This document shows positions 39,450-48,832 of a DNA stretch of 64,000 bases, piece by piece. This DNA is from an uncultured Latescibacterota bacterium (GTDB taxonomy: Bacteria; Latescibacterota; UBA2968). The first letter of the stretch is position 1. Every line of letters begins with the position of its first letter. Under the pieces are notes generated by a model, which was given only the letters and a program-made list of their open reading frames with translations, searched no databases and had not been told where the DNA came from. Made by a program: the position numbers and the translations under genes. The stretch covers positions 572,394 to 636,393 of the forward strand of contig OY282377.1 of NCBI GenBank assembly GCA_958295785.1, read 5' to 3'.

Positions 39450-40391
39450 ATGAGGGCGTACATTGTATTTGTCGCGTGTTTTTTTTCTGTGAATCTCTTG
39501 GCTATTTCGCATGTTCAGGCACAACCCGTGGCTTTGAAACTCGACCATCCAGAGGGGCGCAAGACCCGATACAAGCACAAATTCCGCGTGGAGTATTTCA
39601 GCAATTTGGCCGAACAGATCGTGATGCAAAGCGGGTCTATGCGCGTGATCATAGACAATGAGTGGCGCAGCCACGAAGAGGGGGTTGTTCCCGAAGCCGC
39701 GCCCGGGAAAGAACTCCCCGAAGGGGTTATGGGCGTTCGCGCACAAATTAAAAAGGGCGCCAGTGCAGCGATTTTTCTGGGCGAAAAGCAAACGTATGAG
39801 CAGTATCCCTTTACATTTGACCTGTTCAATGACAAATTTTTTGTCTGGCAGGTGACGCCCGAAGGCAAAGTTCAAAATTTTGAGCCTGAGTTTCCCGCGT
39901 TTCGCGTGGAGCGGCAAGATTTGATCACGGATTTTTTTCAAGGGGCGATGCCCGCAGTTTCTTTGATTTTGCCCGATAACCCGGTTGATAAAGGCGATAC
40001 TTGGACGGGCGAACGCGAATTTTGGCGTCCATTTGCAAGTATGGATATGCTGGGGCGGGATTCGCAAATTAAGTTCAAGAGCACTTACGAAGTGAAAAGC
40101 ATCAAAAAGAAGAAGGACTATGTGGAAGTGACCGTTGAGGAAGTCAGCGAGGTGGCGTACACGGGGTGGATCGATGTGAGTTTGGCTTCTCTGTATTATG
40201 ACGGCAAGGGCACCGGCGGCGGTTCGTGGGTGATCGATGCCACGCGCGGGTTGGTGTTGCAACACAAGATGCATATCGACATCAATAAGCCCATCGTGAT
40301 TAAAGCCGGGCACAAAGACCCCATTGCCAGTATTGTTGCAGAAGTGAAAGTCGATTTGGAACGCAAGTTGGAAAAACTGGAAAAGGAGTAA
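39450..40391 (+). CDS. Secreted protein of unknown function
   Basis: 313 aa with a clear signal peptide (MRAYIVFVACFFSVNLLAIS, cleaved near VQAQ) and a GGAGG site before the ATG. The mature part is rich in beta strand, with ILPDNPVDKGDTWTGEREFW and later GGSWVIDATRGLVLQHKMHI. This is the shape of DUF6263-like periplasmic proteins that measure stability under detergent-like assays in no known way. It has no catalytic motif. It ends just before the proteasome promoter and is therefore not in that operon. Confidence 0.65.
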   Translation: MRAYIVFVACFFSVNLLAISHVQAQPVALKLDHPEGRKTRYKHKFRVEYFSNLAEQIVMQSGSMRVIIDNEWRSHEEGVVPEAAPGKELPEGVMGVRAQIKKGASAAIFLGEKQTYEQYPFTFDLFNDKFFVWQVTPEGKVQNFEPEFPAFRVERQDLITDFFQGAMPAVSLILPDNPVDKGDTWTGEREFWRPFASMDMLGRDSQIKFKSTYEVKSIKKKKDYVEVTVEEVSEVAYTGWIDVSLASLYYDGKGTGGGSWVIDATRGLVLQHKMHIDINKPIVIKAGHKDPIASIVAEVKVDLERKLEKLEKE

Positions 40392-40400
40392 GCGCACGGC

Positions 40401-40429
40401 TTGACATCGGTTTTGAGATGTGCTAAACT
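40401..40429 (+). promoter_or_regulatory. Sigma-70 promoter of the proteasome operon
   Basis: TTGACA (40401-40406), a 17-bp spacer and TAAACT (40424-40429). Predicted start near 40436, about 55 bases before the GTG start of the ATPase gene. Confidence 0.75.
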
Positions 40430-40490
40430 GTGGAGAAATTTTTGGGATGAGCTATATCCTGCAAATCCCGATCCCGGAAGGAAGGTGCCC

Positions 40491-42200
40491 GTGATTAACA
40501 CCAATGATTCTGATCGCCCGAGGAAATCGCCCGAAGATTTTCTTCAGGACTATGTGGATATGCAGCACACGTTTCAGTCCCTGTCGATTATCGATCAAAT
40601 TTTGATGACGATGGATGAAAGAGATCGGCGGCAGCCCTTGTTGTACCAACTTCGGCGACAACTCCAGGAAGATGAGATCACGTTTGAAGAAGCCAGGCGC
40701 ACCATTGTCGAGTTGGAAGGCGCGCTGGAAAAAGTGACGGCGCCTGCCAATCGGGTGGGCACGCTGTTGTCGCCAGCGGAGAATGGCGTTGCCTATATTA
40801 CAGTGGGTGGGTCAGAGTATTATGCCAATGTGGATGCGCGGTTGGATGAACGCGATTTGAAGGTGGGCACGCGGGTGCTGGTCAATGAGGCATTTGCCGT
40901 GGTGGGAGAGATGGGCGAGTCCCCCTCGGGAACCGTGGGCAAACTCGCCCATGTGCTCGACGATGGGCGGTTGCTGGTGGGGCAAGACCACGGTTCGCAG
41001 TCGCATGTGCTCTTGCGCGGTGCTAAGTTGGAGACCGAATCTTTGAAGGCCGGGGAGGAGGTTCGCATCGATCCCCATTTTCGCGTGGCACTGGAAAAGA
41101 TGGGGCATTCTGAAGTCGAGGATTTTTATTTGGAGGAAGTTCCCGAACTGCCGTGGGAAAAAATTGGCGGGCACAAAGATGCGATTCAGGCTATTAAAGA
41201 TACCATTGAGATGCCGGTGTTGCACCCCGAGTTGTTCGAGCGATTTCAGTACAGCACGCCCAAGGGGTTTTTGCTGTATGGCCCGCCGGGGTGCGGCAAG
41301 ACCCTGATTGGCAAAGCCACGGCCTACAATCTCGAGAAACAGGTGCGGGAAGACGGGTTGAATCTCAAGGCGTGTTTTATGCACATTAAGGGGCCCGAGA
41401 TTTTGAACATGTGGTTGGGGGAATCCGAACGCAAGGTGCGCGAGATTTTCTCTCAAGCGCGTGAAAAGCGGCGCGAGGGGTTTTTGCCGGTGGTGTTTAT
41501 CGACGAGGCCGAGTCCGTGTTGGGCACGCGGCGGGCGATTCGGTCGCACAATATTTCCAATACGATTGTGCCCATGTTCTGCTCTGAGATGGATGGGATT
41601 GAGTCGTTGCAAGATGTGGTGATTATTTTGACCTCCAATCGCCCGGATTTGATCGATCCGGCGATTTTGCGCCCGGGTCGGATCGACCGCAAGATCAAGG
41701 TGAATCGGCCGAGCGAGGATGCCTCCGGCGAGATTTTGGGCATTTATTTGACGCCTGATTTGCCAATCGCCGAGGCGGAGTTGGACGCGCATAATGGCGA
41801 TGCAAAAGCCGCGGTTGACGATCTCGTGGCGCGTACCATCGCCGAGATATTTGCCAAGCGCGATGATACGCGCTTTTTGGAGGTTACGCTTAGGAGTGGT
41901 CGAAAGGATGTGTTGAGCCGCGGGGATTTGTGTAGCGGTGCCATTCTCGAGTCGATTGTGAAGCGCGCCAAAGAGATTGCCATTAAGCGGTCGATTGCCG
42001 TAGGCGCGGAAAAGGGGATTGGTTTTGACGATATGCTCGCGGCGGTTGAGACCGAGTATGGGGAAAATGAAATTTTCCCGCCGACGGATAATACAGAAGA
42101 CTGGTTGAAGTTGCTCGATTACGATCCCGAAAACGTGGTGCGCGCCGTGCCCATTCGCCCGAGGCGATCACAACGCATTCATAGACAGAACGTGATTTGA
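40491..42200 (+). CDS. mpa: Proteasome-associated AAA ATPase (Mpa/ARC)
   Basis: 569 aa from the GTG at 40491 behind GGAAGG; the longer frame from 40401 would start inside the promoter. An N-terminal coiled coil (about 20-90) that binds Pup in the family is followed by OB folds (NRVGTLLSPAENGVAYITVG and onward). The AAA domain has Walker A LYGPPGCGKTLIGKA, Walker B VVFIDEAES and arginine-finger region LRPGRIDRKIKV. It would unfold tagged proteins and feed the 20S core. The C-terminus is RIHRQNVI, not the actinobacterial GQYL that docks on the core. It is the first gene of the operon, 37 bases before dop. Confidence 0.94.
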   Translation: MINTNDSDRPRKSPEDFLQDYVDMQHTFQSLSIIDQILMTMDERDRRQPLLYQLRRQLQEDEITFEEARRTIVELEGALEKVTAPANRVGTLLSPAENGVAYITVGGSEYYANVDARLDERDLKVGTRVLVNEAFAVVGEMGESPSGTVGKLAHVLDDGRLLVGQDHGSQSHVLLRGAKLETESLKAGEEVRIDPHFRVALEKMGHSEVEDFYLEEVPELPWEKIGGHKDAIQAIKDTIEMPVLHPELFERFQYSTPKGFLLYGPPGCGKTLIGKATAYNLEKQVREDGLNLKACFMHIKGPEILNMWLGESERKVREIFSQAREKRREGFLPVVFIDEAESVLGTRRAIRSHNISNTIVPMFCSEMDGIESLQDVVIILTSNRPDLIDPAILRPGRIDRKIKVNRPSEDASGEILGIYLTPDLPIAEAELDAHNGDAKAAVDDLVARTIAEIFAKRDDTRFLEVTLRSGRKDVLSRGDLCSGAILESIVKRAKEIAIKRSIAVGAEKGIGFDDMLAAVETEYGENEIFPPTDNTEDWLKLLDYDPENVVRAVPIRPRRSQRIHRQNVI

Positions 42201-42237
42201 GAGTGGACTAATCACCGACCATGGACGACTGACGACT

Positions 42238-43791
42238 ATGAGACGTTTATTTGGACTGGAAACGGAATACGGCATTACGATTGACGGCGTTGATAAAGTC
42301 GATGTCGTCGAGGAATCGATGCAGTTGATTCGGTGCTATCAACGAGGCGATTTTGTTCCGTTGTGGGATTATCAACTGGAAAACCCCCGCAGGGATGAGC
42401 GGGGGTTTGAGGTCGAGAATTTGTTGAATGACGCCGATGAAAAGGTGCATGTGCAACGCGACCGCAAGCGCAAAATTCCGTTTGTGGAATTGAAGAGCGA
42501 TTTGATTATTTACAATGGCGCGCGGTTTTACAACGATCATACGCACCCAGAGTTTTCCACGGGGGAGTGCTTGGGGTTGTTTGAACTCGTCGCACAGGAC
42601 AAGGCGGGGGAGCGCGTCGTCGATATTTGCGCGCGCAGGCGCACGGAGATGCTGGACATGGGCACGGTGCGGATGTACAAAAACAATACGGATTTTGAAG
42701 GGCATAGCTACGGATGTCACGAAAATTATTTGATGGATCGCGCCGTGCCTTTCGAGCGGATCTTGGCGGGGTTGTTGCCCTTTTTTGCCACGCGGCAGAT
42801 CTATTGCGGTGCCGGCAAGGTGGGGGTTGAGCGGGAAGACAGAGCGCCGATTTATCAGTTGTCTCAGCGCGCGGAATTTTTTGAAGTGATCGCGAGTGTG
42901 GATACGATGCACAAGCGGCCCGTTGTCAATACGCGCGATGAACCGCACGCAGATGCCACGCGCTATCGCCGGTTGCATGTGATTGTGGGCGATGCCAATA
43001 TGTCGGAATATGTCACAGCGCTCAAGGTGGGGGCAACGGCTCTGGTCATCGATTTGATCGAGGCGGATTGTCTGCCCGATTACCGGCTCGAGAATCCGAT
43101 TGCGGCGATGAAGAATATCGCTCGCGATCAGACCCATGAGTGGTTGGTGGAAGTCGAGGGGGCGGGCAACCGCTTGGTGCCGGCGGTTGAGATTCAGGAT
43201 GCCTTTTTGACTTTGGCCCGCCGCGAGTTTGCCGGGCGCGACCAGGAGACGGATTGGGTGTTGTCGGCGTGGGATGATGTGCTGGAAAAATTGCGCCGCG
43301 ATCCGATGGATTTGGTGGGCACCTGCGATTGGGTGACGAAGAAATGGCTGATTGACCGGTTTTGCGACGAGGAAAATTTGGCGTGGGACAATCCCGACGA
43401 TTTGTTTTGGATGCAGAGTCAGGATTTGGAATACAGCAATGTGGATCGGGAGTCCGGGTTGTACTATTTGTTGGAGTCCCAAGGGTATATGGTGCGGTTG
43501 GTGGGGGATGATGAGATTGCAGCGGCGATGTCGGAACCCCCTTCGGGCACTCGGGCGTATTTTCGGGGGCGCAGTTTGGAAAAGTTCGGGGAACATGTGT
43601 CGTCGATCAACTGGGATCGCATCGTGTTCAAGAACAATGGCCGCCAGCACGCGGTGGATATGAAGTCCTTGGTGGATGCAGAGCGCGTGCGGCATTACAA
43701 TGACGTGTTGGATCAGGCAGAGACGTTGGACGCTTTTTTGCAGGCTTTGCACAAGGTGGAGCGTTCTCTTAAGGAGGCTGGAGATGGATAA
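42238..43791 (+). CDS. dop: Dop-type Pup/UBact deamidase-depupylase
   Basis: 517 aa of the Pup-ligase superfamily (glutamine synthetase-like fold). It starts MRRLFGLETEYGI with the metal-binding E-x-E. It has a long insertion at about 38-85, matching the Dop loop, then NGARFYNDHTHPEFSTGEC. The NDH-HPE arrangement resembles Dop (VDHAHPEYS) more than PafA. Other shared motifs are YGCHENYLM, TRQIYCGAGKVG, NTRDEPHAD and YRRLHVIVGDANMSEY. It should remove the tag from proteins. Assignment against PafA rests on these two local features. Confidence 0.85.
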   Translation: MRRLFGLETEYGITIDGVDKVDVVEESMQLIRCYQRGDFVPLWDYQLENPRRDERGFEVENLLNDADEKVHVQRDRKRKIPFVELKSDLIIYNGARFYNDHTHPEFSTGECLGLFELVAQDKAGERVVDICARRRTEMLDMGTVRMYKNNTDFEGHSYGCHENYLMDRAVPFERILAGLLPFFATRQIYCGAGKVGVEREDRAPIYQLSQRAEFFEVIASVDTMHKRPVVNTRDEPHADATRYRRLHVIVGDANMSEYVTALKVGATALVIDLIEADCLPDYRLENPIAAMKNIARDQTHEWLVEVEGAGNRLVPAVEIQDAFLTLARREFAGRDQETDWVLSAWDDVLEKLRRDPMDLVGTCDWVTKKWLIDRFCDEENLAWDNPDDLFWMQSQDLEYSNVDRESGLYYLLESQGYMVRLVGDDEIAAAMSEPPSGTRAYFRGRSLEKFGEHVSSINWDRIVFKNNGRQHAVDMKSLVDAERVRHYNDVLDQAETLDAFLQALHKVERSLKEAGDG

Positions 43792-43975
43792 GGGCTTGCA
43801 GTACGAGAGACGGACAAAACCCGTTGCGCCAGGTGGCCCCGGGCCGGGCGATGATGGCGATGGCGGCCCGGCGCGCCCAAAGGTGGAGCGGCCAGACACA
43901 CGCGATTTGATGCGGCGCATGCGGCGCGTGGATCCCAATCAGGCGCGGCGTTATCGCCAGCGAACAGGCGAGTAG
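43784..43975 (+). CDS. ubact: Ubiquitin-like protein tag UBact (Pup homologue)
   Basis: 63 aa from the ATG at 43784, six bases after AAGGAGG, overlapping the end of dop by eight bases. The protein is small, charged and probably disordered: MDKGLQYERRTKPVAP, a Gly/Pro/Asp-rich segment, then RDLMRRMRRVDPNQARRYRQ and the end RTGE. The C-terminal Arg-Thr-Gly-Glu is the signature of UBact, the Pup relative described in several Gram-negative and candidate phyla. The final Glu would be joined to substrate lysines by the PafA-type ligase. The order between dop and the proteasome beta gene confirms the call. Confidence 0.93.
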   Translation: MDKGLQYERRTKPVAPGGPGPGDDGDGGPARPKVERPDTRDLMRRMRRVDPNQARRYRQRTGE

Positions 43976-43978
43976 CCC

Positions 43979-44785
43979 ATGATGGTATCGGGTGGAGATT
44001 TTGTCGATTTGCTGCGGCAAACGGGCTATCGGTTTCCGGGCGAGCAGTTGGGCGATGCCGCAGGGGATCGCGCCTTGCCCTTTGAGCCGACGGAGGGCAC
44101 GACCATTTTGGCATTTCAGTATGCCGATGGGGTGCTCGTTGCAGGTGATCGGCGCGCGACAGCGGGCAATATGGTGCTTTACGACCGCGCGGATAAGGTG
44201 ATCGATTTGGATGCGTATTCGGTGATGGCGATTTCAGGGTCGCCGGCTGTGGCGTTTGAGATCGCGCGCATTTTGGAGCATGCGTTTCAGTATTATCGCC
44301 GCCGGTTACTTCAAGAGATGAGTTTGCCGGCCAAGTTGCGCCGTCTGTCGCTGTTGATCAAAGACAATTTGCCCCTGGCCATGCAGGGCATTGGGGCCGT
44401 AATTCCGGTGTTTGCGACGTATGACCGCCGGGATGGGCGCGGCAAAATTTATTTTTACGACGCTTTGGGCGCGCAGTTTGAAAGCGCGGATTTTACGACT
44501 ACGGGATCGGGTTCGCCTGCGATTCGCGGGGCGATGTACTATCTCAATCGCTGGAGCGGGCGGCGGTTTGCCGAAATGGATCGCGAGACGGCTATCGGGC
44601 ATGCGTTGCAGCTTTTGGATACGGCGTCTGAATACGATTCGGCCACGGGGCGATACGAGCGGTCCGCCGATATTTTTCCCTCGGTCAAAACCATTACCGC
44701 GTCGGGCTTGGCGGAAATTGAGACCGAAGAATTGCGGCGGCTTTACGCGCAATACGTAGATGGGGAGGAGGCGGGACGCGCATGA
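43979..44785 (+). CDS. prcB: 20S proteasome beta subunit
   Basis: 268 aa. A propeptide of 40 residues ends at Gly, and the mature chain would start with Thr41 (EG|TTILAFQYADGVLVAGDRR), the catalytic nucleophile. The later Asp and Lys of the active site (AGDRRAT, YDRADKVI) and the GSGSPAIRGAMYYL region are conserved. It starts three bases after the UBact stop and overlaps prcA by four bases. The beta subunits form the inner proteolytic rings. Confidence 0.95.
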   Translation: MMVSGGDFVDLLRQTGYRFPGEQLGDAAGDRALPFEPTEGTTILAFQYADGVLVAGDRRATAGNMVLYDRADKVIDLDAYSVMAISGSPAVAFEIARILEHAFQYYRRRLLQEMSLPAKLRRLSLLIKDNLPLAMQGIGAVIPVFATYDRRDGRGKIYFYDALGAQFESADFTTTGSGSPAIRGAMYYLNRWSGRRFAEMDRETAIGHALQLLDTASEYDSATGRYERSADIFPSVKTITASGLAEIETEELRRLYAQYVDGEEAGRA

Positions 44786-45576
44786 TGTTGTCAGACGAAC
44801 CGTATCGCTGGGCAGAGGCGGTTGCCAATCGGCGCGAGTATATCGAGGATCAGATTCGTCCGGGCAGCCCGGTGGTGGGCGTGGGATATGAAGGCGGTAT
44901 TTTGTTGCTGACCCTGTCTCAGAGTCAGCAAAAATTGTTTGAGGTGTACGACCGCATCGGGCTTGCGGGCATTGGGCATTCCACGGATATCGAAAAGCTC
45001 CGGCAGGCGGCCATTGATATGGCGCATGCGATTGGGTTTAATTATTCAGAAGACGATGTGACGCTGCGCCAAATTGTGTACTTTGGCCTGGGACCCGCGA
45101 TGAAGGCGGGTTTTGACGATGTGGTGCGGTCGCCGTTTTTGGCGCGCGTGCTCCTCGCCGAGTTGGATGGGCAAGAAGGCGCGCAGGTGTTTTATACGGT
45201 GGATTACGATGGCGCGTTTCATCGGCGCGAAACCTGGGCTGTTGTGGGCGGTGTTGCCGAGGCCGATTTGATGATGGGGCGTGTGTTTTCGGAGTTGGAT
45301 GCGGAGGCGTTGTCCCTCACCGATGCTGCGGATGTTGCCCTTCGCGCTTGGGCCATGGGGCGATGGGTGGGGACGATGGAGGATGTGCCGGACGATGTCG
45401 CGGAGCTCGAGGAGATGGCAGATGGCGTGGATGTGGATGATGTTCTCAAAACCGAGTTGCAAAATTTAGAGGTGGAGGCGGTGGTGCTCGGTCGGTCGCT
45501 GGTGGGAAAAAACAAATACCGCAATTTGGATGCCGAGGAAATCGCGCCCGCGCTGGCGCGGTTCAAGGCGGATTGA
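44782..45576 (+). CDS. prcA: 20S proteasome alpha subunit
   Basis: 264 aa. The N-terminal region (SDEPYRWAEAVANRREYIED) is the gate helix of bacterial alpha subunits, followed by VVGVGYEGGILLLT and YDRIGLAGIGHSTDIEKLR, where beta subunits would carry the nucleophile domain. No catalytic Thr is present. A C-terminal acidic segment (ELEEMADGVDVDDVL) precedes a final helix. It forms the outer rings on which the ATPase docks. Coupled to prcB by ATGA-type overlap. Confidence 0.94.
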   Translation: MMLSDEPYRWAEAVANRREYIEDQIRPGSPVVGVGYEGGILLLTLSQSQQKLFEVYDRIGLAGIGHSTDIEKLRQAAIDMAHAIGFNYSEDDVTLRQIVYFGLGPAMKAGFDDVVRSPFLARVLLAELDGQEGAQVFYTVDYDGAFHRRETWAVVGGVAEADLMMGRVFSELDAEALSLTDAADVALRAWAMGRWVGTMEDVPDDVAELEEMADGVDVDDVLKTELQNLEVEAVVLGRSLVGKNKYRNLDAEEIAPALARFKAD

Positions 45577-45584
45577 GAGGCTTC

Positions 45585-47063
45585 ATGAGAGATCGCATTT
45601 TTGGTTTGGAGACCGAGTACGGGTGTTTGGCACCCGAGCGCGACGGCTTTGTGAGTCCAGACAACATTTCGGTCAAGGTGAAGGATCACATTTTTTTTTC
45701 CGACCGACTCGGGATTGTGGATATCCACTATCGAGGACGAGACGAACCCCCTGGCAATGGGGGTTTTCTCTTGAATGCCGGGCGCGTGTATATCGACATG
45801 GGGCATTTGGAATACGCCACGCCCGAATGCGCGGGCCTGTGGGATATCGTGGCGTTTGATCGGGCGGGCGATTTCATTTTGCACCGGGCATTGCAGGCAC
45901 TCGGCTTGGGCAAGGAAGCCTCGTTTTTGAAGAACAATATCGATCACTATACGGGGGCGACATTTGGCTGTCACGAAAATTATTTGATCCGGCGCAATGT
46001 GCCGTTTTCCACGGTGGTGATTCCGGCACTTCTGCCGTTTTTGGTGACGCGCCAAATTTTCTGCGGGGCGGGTCGCGTGGGCAGTTATGACGATAGTTTT
46101 TATTATTACGGCCGCGATGTGCGCGATGATGCGGACCGAGAAGACCCCGTGACCTTTCAGATTTCTCAACGCGCGGATCACATTGTAACCGAGATTTATC
46201 AATGGATTCAGTTTTCGCGTGCGATTATCAATACGCGGGATGAGCCGCTGGCCGATCACAGCAAGTATCGCCGGTTGCACCTTTTGGTGGGCGATTCGAA
46301 TATGTCGGAGTACGCCACGGCATTGAAAATTGGCACGACTGCGATGGTGCTCAATCTCTTGGAGCGCAAAATTTTTCCCTACGACCTCGGCTTGGGCGAT
46401 CCCGTGTGGGCACTCAAAGAGATTTCGCGCGACCCGACCCACAAATGGATTCTGGCGCGGCAAAACGGGCGAACCATTTCGGCCATTGATATCCAGCGCG
46501 TCTATTTGGCCTTGGCGCAACGCCATTTGAGCGGTTTGGATGAGGAGTCGGACTGGGTGCTCGATGCGTGGGAGCGCACGCTCGATGATCTGGAATCCGA
46601 TCCGATGCAATTGTCCGACCGTTTGGACTGGGTGGCGAAAAAGTGGTTGTTGGATGCGTTCCGCGAATCGGAAAATTTGACCTGGAATGATCCGTGGTTG
46701 CAGAGTTTGGATTTGGAGTATCACAATATCGATCCCAATCGCGGGTTGTATTTCGATTTGGAGCAACAGGGAAGGATGCAGCGCGTGTTGACCGATGATC
46801 AAATTGAGCGGGCGCGGTTGACGCCCCCGATAGATACGCGGGCAAAAGCGCGGGCCGCACTGGTGAAGACGCTGTCGGAAAACCGGATGCGGTACATTGT
46901 GGATTGGGATTCGGTGTATTTGGAAAATGAACGCCACTTGAGTTTGCGCGATCCATTTTGCACCTACGACGAAGAAGCCGCAGAGCTTTCTCGAGAGATC
47001 AGAGTCGAATCGAGGACAATAGACGCGATGCGTAGAATGCAAGAGGCAAGGCGGGAGAAGTGA
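45585..47063 (+). CDS. pafA: PafA-type Pup/UBact-protein ligase
   Basis: About 492 aa from the ATG at 45585 (a TTG at 45573 lacks a site). It is the second Pup-ligase-superfamily protein: MRDRIFGLETEYGCLAPERD, NAGRVYIDMGHLEYATPECA, FGCHENYLIRR, TRQIFCGAGRVG, NTRDEPLADHSKYRR. It has no Dop-loop insertion, and the IDMGHLEYATPEC block matches the PafA pattern, so it is the likely ligase that joins the UBact C-terminal Glu to lysines. It is the last gene of the operon, eight bases after prcA. Confidence 0.87.
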   Translation: MRDRIFGLETEYGCLAPERDGFVSPDNISVKVKDHIFFSDRLGIVDIHYRGRDEPPGNGGFLLNAGRVYIDMGHLEYATPECAGLWDIVAFDRAGDFILHRALQALGLGKEASFLKNNIDHYTGATFGCHENYLIRRNVPFSTVVIPALLPFLVTRQIFCGAGRVGSYDDSFYYYGRDVRDDADREDPVTFQISQRADHIVTEIYQWIQFSRAIINTRDEPLADHSKYRRLHLLVGDSNMSEYATALKIGTTAMVLNLLERKIFPYDLGLGDPVWALKEISRDPTHKWILARQNGRTISAIDIQRVYLALAQRHLSGLDEESDWVLDAWERTLDDLESDPMQLSDRLDWVAKKWLLDAFRESENLTWNDPWLQSLDLEYHNIDPNRGLYFDLEQQGRMQRVLTDDQIERARLTPPIDTRAKARAALVKTLSENRMRYIVDWDSVYLENERHLSLRDPFCTYDEEAAELSREIRVESRTIDAMRRMQEARREK

Positions 47064-47483: not shown

Positions 47484-48386
47484 ATGGGCAATTGGGTAAC
47501 TCGTGAAAGGGCAGAGAAATTATTTGCCGAAGCCGGCATAATAGGTCCCTTAAAGAACATAGGGCGTGGCCCCCTACTTTGGATCGGTCTAATTGGCAAT
47601 ATTGCTTCTATTTTTAGTCTTTGGCTTGATATCTTTCCCCAATGGACAATCATCTTTGCCGTTGTTGTTTTTTCCACTGTCATCGCAACCGGATTTTGGC
47701 ACTATCGCAGCAGGAAGAACCGGGCAGAAGAGCTACTATTTGGTCACATAGAGGCGACAGAACATCTGGTATCTTCTTTCACCTATATGCATCAACTTAT
47801 TCACGATACGCGCAATTCTTTCTTGCTCCAAAATTTCCAAAACGCTCACAAGAACAATGAAAGCTATGATATATTCTGGGTATCGGTCATTGTGCAAGCA
47901 ATCAACAATATTCAATATATGACTACAGCAGCTATCGGCATGCCTTGTTATGCCAATCTGATGATCCCTTCGAAAAACGATTCAAACTCATTGGTGTCCT
48001 CTTGGTGGTCAGAAAATACCCCTGCTGGCCGAAAAGAGAAATTCCCTCCTACTCAAATACCCATAGGTCACGGGATAGCAGGCAAGGCTTTTGCAGAGAT
48101 GAAGGTATATGTTGTGGGAAATGTGAGTGAGTTTCTCGGTTTTGTACCAAGAGGTGGAGCCGAACCATTGCCTTATACCAGTGTGATTTCTTGTCCATTT
48201 CGGATCCAAGGGAAACCCGCGGGCGTCTTAAATATAGATTGTAAAGTTAAAAACGCATTTGAACCTGAAGAGATTAAGTTTCTGGTTCAAGCTGCTGCCG
48301 ATACTCTGGCACTGATTTTGCAGGTGCAAGAATACGAGCAGTCTTTATTTTTAGAAATCCACAATCTCCCGCCATCAAGTTCGTAA
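47484..48386 (+). CDS. Two-TM protein with C-terminal GAF domain
   Basis: 300 aa. Two hydrophobic segments near 31-50 and 55-72 form a hairpin anchor, followed by a helical linker (AEELLFGHIEATEHLVSSFT) and a GAF-like domain at about 165-290. Visible GAF features are PIGHGIAGKAFAEMKVYVVG and TSVISCPFRIQGKPAGVLNI, then FEPEEIKFLVQAAADTLALI. GAF domains bind small ligands such as cyclic nucleotides; the ligand here is unknown. No kinase or cyclase domain is fused. The gene is A+T-richer than its neighbours and is followed by a 59-aa gene with its own promoter. A membrane sensor in an accessory module is likely. Confidence 0.75.
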   Translation: MGNWVTRERAEKLFAEAGIIGPLKNIGRGPLLWIGLIGNIASIFSLWLDIFPQWTIIFAVVVFSTVIATGFWHYRSRKNRAEELLFGHIEATEHLVSSFTYMHQLIHDTRNSFLLQNFQNAHKNNESYDIFWVSVIVQAINNIQYMTTAAIGMPCYANLMIPSKNDSNSLVSSWWSENTPAGRKEKFPPTQIPIGHGIAGKAFAEMKVYVVGNVSEFLGFVPRGGAEPLPYTSVISCPFRIQGKPAGVLNIDCKVKNAFEPEEIKFLVQAAADTLALILQVQEYEQSLFLEIHNLPPSSS

Positions 48387-48798: not shown

Positions 48799-48832
48799 AA
48801 AAAAGCCGGTCACATTGTGATCGGCTTTTTTT
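48799..48832. terminator. Bidirectional terminator between the 59-aa gene and the DUF1854 gene
   Basis: AAAAAAGCCGGTCACA/TGTGATCGGCTTTTTT forms a long stem with wobble pairs and A/T tails on both sides. Confidence 0.8.

Follow-up and report, generated by a model that had tools for sequence, protein, structure and literature searches.

Conjugation of UBact coupled to a proteasome has been described in Gram-negative bacteria (Lehmann, Udasin, Livneh and Ciechanover 2017, BBRC 483:946, cited in PMC5751360). These systems combine a tag of the UBact family (NF033388, PF20513), PafA and Dop homologues and proteasome genes at one locus. The operon reported here shares these components, with no categorical difference, and therefore belongs to a kind already described. 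Gram-negative proteasomes are also on record in Armatimonadetes, Nitrospirae and Verrucomicrobia (PMC5666114); Latescibacterota and Poribacteria are not among the phyla named in the part of that paper excerpted. Like those systems, our locus is a non-actinobacterial one with genes for both proteasome subunit types, alpha and beta, and its PrcA and PrcB presumably fall in the same Gram-negative subcluster. The actinobacterial Pup-proteasome resembles it in gene order, enzyme families, the C-terminal G[EQ] of the tag and catalytic residues, but differs as follows: the UBact tag here does not match the Pup model, actinobacterial Mpa ends in GQYL whereas UBact-type Mpa ends in Val/Ile-Val/Ile, the ligase alpha-loop is unlike the actinobacterial one, and PafA and Dop form separate clades. 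HslUV, a related threonine protease with an AAA ATPase, is found in most of the remaining phylum yet is nearly absent from the class to which our locus belongs.

Layout of the six-gene locus

The window, by which we mean the whole 64,000-nucleotide stretch of DNA analysed, contains mpa-dop-ubact-prcB-prcA-pafA, six genes all on the plus strand between positions 40491 and 47063, as assigned from the list of open reading frames and from NCBIfam and Pfam profiles (Table 1). A prior sequence-only reading had proposed a complete UBact/Pup-proteasome operon in a Gram-negative-type genome, and the profile assignment of all six genes supports it. The genes were also said to lie in one unit with spacing of at most 37 bases, which holds: gaps and overlaps run from 3 to 37 bases (mpa-dop, 37-nt gap; dop/ubact, 8-nt overlap; ubact-prcB, 3-nt gap; prcB/prcA, 4-nt overlap; prcA-pafA, 8-nt gap with ATG 45585, where the listed TTG 45573 would give a 4-nt overlap). 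The NCBIfam matches have E-values from 1.3e-141 (Mpa, TIGR03689) to 6e-23 (PrcA), homology far beyond chance. Only UBact exceeds its NCBIfam cut-off; Mpa (472.9 bits against 504.75), Dop, PrcB, PrcA and PafA fall below their equivalog cut-offs, and this counts against reading the locus as a UBact-proteasome system.

The unit had been drawn from position 40401 with a near-consensus promoter. Genes and strand stand, as does the match to consensus (TTGACA at 40401, a 17-nt spacer, then TAAACT). This site is the best-placed among seven matches in a promoter search, and shuffled sequence gives 4.8 +/- 1.7 matches, so that it is not significant by itself and is a plausible, putative operon promoter. 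The start of mpa had to be moved. The listed 599-aa frame begins with TTG 40401, within the putative -35 box, and GTG 40491 is preceded by GGAAGGAAGG; because TTG 40401 falls inside the promoter-like site and has the weaker ribosome-binding site, it was rejected, and GTG 40491 is the likely start.

Table 1. Features of the locus, with positions counted from the first base of the window
Feature	Position	Strand	Description
putative sigma-70-type promoter	40401..40429	+	TTGACA-17-TAAACT, TG ahead of second hexamer; consensus match only
mpa	40491..42200	+	proteasomal AAA ATPase (unfoldase), 569 aa, GTG start (likely), GGAAGG ribosome-binding site
dop	42238..43791	+	depupylase-type enzyme, 517 aa; TIGR03688 E 1.5e-134, PF03136 E 5e-154
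ubact	43784..43975	+	63-aa ubiquitin-like tag ending RYRQRTGE; GGAGG ribosome-binding site
prcB	43979..44785	+	proteasome beta subunit; TIGR03690 E 1e-50
prcA	44782..45576	+	proteasome alpha subunit, 264 aa; TIGR03691 E 6e-23
pafA	45585..47063	+	UBact ligase, 492 aa; PF03136 E 1e-144, TIGR03686 E 4e-113

Tag, core particle and conjugation enzymes

UBact scores well above the curated cut-offs of NF033388 (79 bits, cut-off 35; E 2.2e-22) and PF20513 (70.3 bits, cut-off 27.8), in line with the tag proposed from the sequence. The Pup model (PF05639) gave no match in the host genome at E 0.001, while a C. glutamicum control was detected; Nonomuraea Pup scores 106 bits. UBact ends in G followed by E, and RTGE or RTGQ closes the tag at all loci examined. 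As the terminal Glu is genome-encoded, this species can dispense with deamidation by Dop, a step that, by analogy with the Pup system, would be expected in relatives whose UBact ends in Q. Two genomes carry additional tag genes. At the G018 locus (L023:5103-7585, family f3), dop and ubact are separated by a restriction-modification pair (an N6_N4 methylase and an MjaI-type endonuclease), and a further UBact gene with a tail frame-shifted to RDGGVN follows. In G026, an intact second UBact gene stands on another contig (L030:4783-5022) with no operon beside it, flanked by genes for response regulators and for a sigma factor; it may be foreign, as this assembly has about 6% contamination.

PrcB has a 40-residue leader followed by TTILAF, and the leader is predicted to be cleaved off just before Thr1. 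The Thr nucleophile noted in the sequence-only reading corresponds to Thr1, which together with Asp17 and Lys33 is invariant in the aligned PrcB proteins (47/47, a count that includes the Nonomuraea reference). PrcA matches M. tuberculosis (Mtb) PrcA (E 1.7e-16) and keeps the activator-pocket lysine. Proteasome-like genes also occur apart from such operons. Outside the window, a 248-aa protein starting M(M)TAIVGMLC is present twice (G000:C1:1473714-1474142 and 3924328-3924756; L125 and L126), in copies 98% identical over 1448 bp; a 143-aa gene without a Pfam match lies upstream of it in L125, and the copies are possibly a mobile unit. In a Poribacteria genome (G064:C54:97253-97459) and a Nitrospirota genome (G066:C27:41292-41492), open frames of roughly 290-320 aa give a second weak match to the HslV model, which points to further PrcB-like genes outside the operon. 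A Proteasome-family match of 186 bits at G051:C256:8420-8965 is far above any other in the phylum; the Pup_ligase gene of G051 is truncated, UBact was not found in it, and the C256 contig is possibly foreign.

We are confident that the six genes are one operon encoding a UBact-proteasome system, whose biochemical steps are all modelled on the actinobacterial Pup system. PafA would use ATP to activate the gamma-carboxylate of the C-terminal glutamate of UBact and link the tag to a target lysine. The N-terminal coiled coil of Mpa would then bind UBact, and the tagged protein would be drawn through the Mpa pore into a 20S core built from rings of PrcA and of PrcB, there to be cleaved by PrcB Thr1, with Dop taking UBact off and recycling it. 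Alternatively, the tag could be mainly a reversible, non-degradative mark with degradation secondary. Some actinobacteria lack proteasome genes and still tag with Pup (PMC3511204), so a tag can be of use where nothing is degraded, and Dop is never lost; but mpa, prcB and prcA adjoin the tag in all complete loci of the window's class with their catalytic residues invariant, and we regard this alternative as improbable.

Two Pup-ligase-superfamily enzymes had been recognized in the operon, and a search of the host genome with the Pup_ligase model indeed returns these two and nothing else. Dop has the Dop-loop, the catalytic Asp and a DHTHPE segment that fits DH[AT]HPE; PafA keeps its catalytic Asp71 and has no Dop-loop, so that in Dop-loop and Asp the pair is as expected of one hydrolase and one ligase. 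Compared with the signature residues in Table 1 of PMC7947786, PafA carries the PafA-type residue at four sites (Phe, Gly, Ala and His). Its alpha-loop, HIVTEIYQWIQFSR, lacks most residues of the actinobacterial signature HxWEGxSSA..RS, and one extra residue beside the catalytic Asp is missing (DMG-HLE versus DVGSHPE). Both features count against the UBact-proteasome reading; the ligase has a substrate-loop sequence of its own. A predicted PafA model (mean pLDDT 83) is uninformative on this loop, because the stretch that contains it (163-214) has pLDDT below 50.

Could the gene named pafA encode a second hydrolase instead? Among solved structures, its product scores higher by sequence against Dop (302 bits) than against PafA (261 bits), and a fold search with the predicted model, in which Dop and PafA structures match about equally, puts Dop first by a tiny margin. 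The missing Dop-loop and the four PafA-type residues speak for a ligase, as do a slightly higher score on the PafA than on the Dop model (378 versus 370 bits) and a tree of PafA and Dop in which the protein groups with actinobacterial PafA, away from every Dop, at the supported split between the two enzymes (93/95). A tagging pathway lacking any ligase would moreover be senseless, and we consider a second hydrolase very improbable.

Distribution and origin

The host genome is a single 5.66-Mb contig, 99% complete, of the Latescibacterota, and its nearest named genome, uncultured Latescibacteria OX638329.1 (PafA 87% identical), is of the same genus. Handelsmanbacteria, a Latescibacterota lineage, are reported to be among the first UBact cases. 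Our literature search, limited in scope, found no paper tying Latescibacterota to a proteasome. Across 64 Latescibacterota genomes (47 of the window's class and 17 others), UBact was detected in 45/47 and 0/17, respectively, and Pup_ligase in 47/47 and 0/17. UBact is also present in 76 of the 85 genomes of the Poribacteria phylum. The remark that such operons are known in only a few phyla outside Actinobacteria thus made the system look more exceptional than it is: Gram-negative cases are published, and UBact occurs almost throughout this class and Poribacteria. Loci from Latescibacterota, Poribacteria, Nitrospirota and Nitrospinota share the six-gene order, as do some from Verrucomicrobia; two other Verrucomicrobia loci (L109, L079), one of them in Chthoniobacter flavus, have pafA separate and ahead of the tag.

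HslUV shows the opposite pattern within the phylum. HslV was above cut-off in 1/47 genomes of the window's class and 14/17 of the other Latescibacterota, and HslU was found in 1/47 and 15/17; the sole class member with HslUV, G018, has both proteins. HslV occurs beside UBact in both sampled Poribacteria, one Nitrospirota and one Nitrospinota genome. A general rule that the UBact proteasome replaces HslUV was therefore rejected: since Poribacteria and others, G018 included, retain both systems, loss of HslUV is a trait of the window's class.

The genes around the operon (an oxidoreductase gene, a DUF6263-like gene, a minus-strand gene at 48831 and an ABC transporter gene) adjoin it in same-family relatives too. 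The DUF6263-like gene (39450-40391), directly upstream of mpa, also lies close to mpa throughout families f1 and f2 and is perhaps just a neighbour. A GAF-domain gene at 47484-48386 is likely a recent insertion, because its third-position GC is low (0.41) and it is missing beside the operon in relatives.

None of the 80 loci kept from the genome scan was actinobacterial, so sequences from Nonomuraea (L123), Tsukamurella (L124) and the PDB served as a small reference set. In the PafA and Dop tree (35 rows, rooted by paralogue), a UBact-type PafA clade (100/100) stands beside the actinobacterial PafA clade (100/100), and a UBact-type Dop clade (98/98) beside the actinobacterial Dop clade (100/100). 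Nesting within Actinobacteria, named in the sequence-only reading as the mark of an import, is not seen for either enzyme among the few actinobacterial sequences sampled (two PafA, three Dop). A concatenated tree of five proteins (quick, with support other than bootstrap) places all Latescibacterota in one clade (97); f4 stands apart, f3 is beside f1 and f2, and f2 lies among f1 rows. These subclades broadly follow families, and the topology agrees with inheritance within the class.

Recent import from Actinobacteria, or assembly contamination, is likewise very improbable: the actinobacterial gene order and published views in which proteasomes and pupylation reached Gram-negative bacteria by transfer from Actinobacteria (PMC5666114; PMC7947786; PMC3511204) favour it, but the single contig, third-position GC of 0.64-0.68 in all six genes, similar to most neighbours, synteny of the flanks among same-family genomes, the class-wide distribution and the separate PafA and Dop clades refute a recent transfer. 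A transfer long ago, from or to Actinobacteria, may have taken place, as the actinobacterial sequences are few and Acidimicrobiia, the proposed donor for Leptospirillum, lie outside the sampling. The operon is genuine and complete; it is old, native to this lineage and nothing unusual for its clade. Non-actinobacterial pupylation has so far been described as sporadic and imported from Actinobacteria; its near-universal presence here and the placement of PafA and Dop contrast with that picture.

The Mpa tail and its proposed contact with the core

Mpa has two OB domains and an AAA module by Pfam, and a predicted model (pLDDT 74, pTM 0.50) has helices at 14-40 and 48-83, with the domain order of actinobacterial-type Mpa/ARC. 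Its C terminus reads ...RQNVI. Among 38 distinct UBact-type Mpa proteins (named loci, five phyla), all end in two Val/Ile residues after a variable linker and none has the C-terminal docking motif GQYL, in which the Tsukamurella reference terminates. In M. tuberculosis, the GQYL tail of Mpa is required for gate opening of the core, and docking of wild-type Mpa is still unsolved (PMC8142254); lack of this motif thus counts against the UBact-proteasome reading. Activator tails insert into a pocket of Mtb PrcA that contains Lys52 (PMC11962144), and the counterpart of this residue is a lysine in 48/48 UBact-type PrcA. We infer from this conservation that the tyrosine-free tail would occupy the same PrcA pocket, so that Mpa would dock on the PrcA ring through Val/Ile-Val/Ile and not through GQYL. 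A literature search, not exhaustive, found no earlier report of the conserved tail.

The apparently new details are the Val/Ile tail of Mpa together with the invariant PrcA pocket lysine, and the ligase loop sequence; both tail and loop are points deserving specialist attention. We tentatively suggest, at less than even likelihood, that the docking chemistry of UBact differs from that of Pup, with a tyrosine-free Mpa tail gating PrcA and a lineage-specific ligase alpha-loop. The gate would then open without the tyrosine of GQYL or of hydrophobic-Tyr-X motifs, and the alpha-loop would read UBact or the substrates. If so, UBact and Pup systems would have arisen from a single ancestral machine and evolved as two separate branches. 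The conserved tyrosine-free tail is a clear, testable difference in how the ATPase contacts the core particle.
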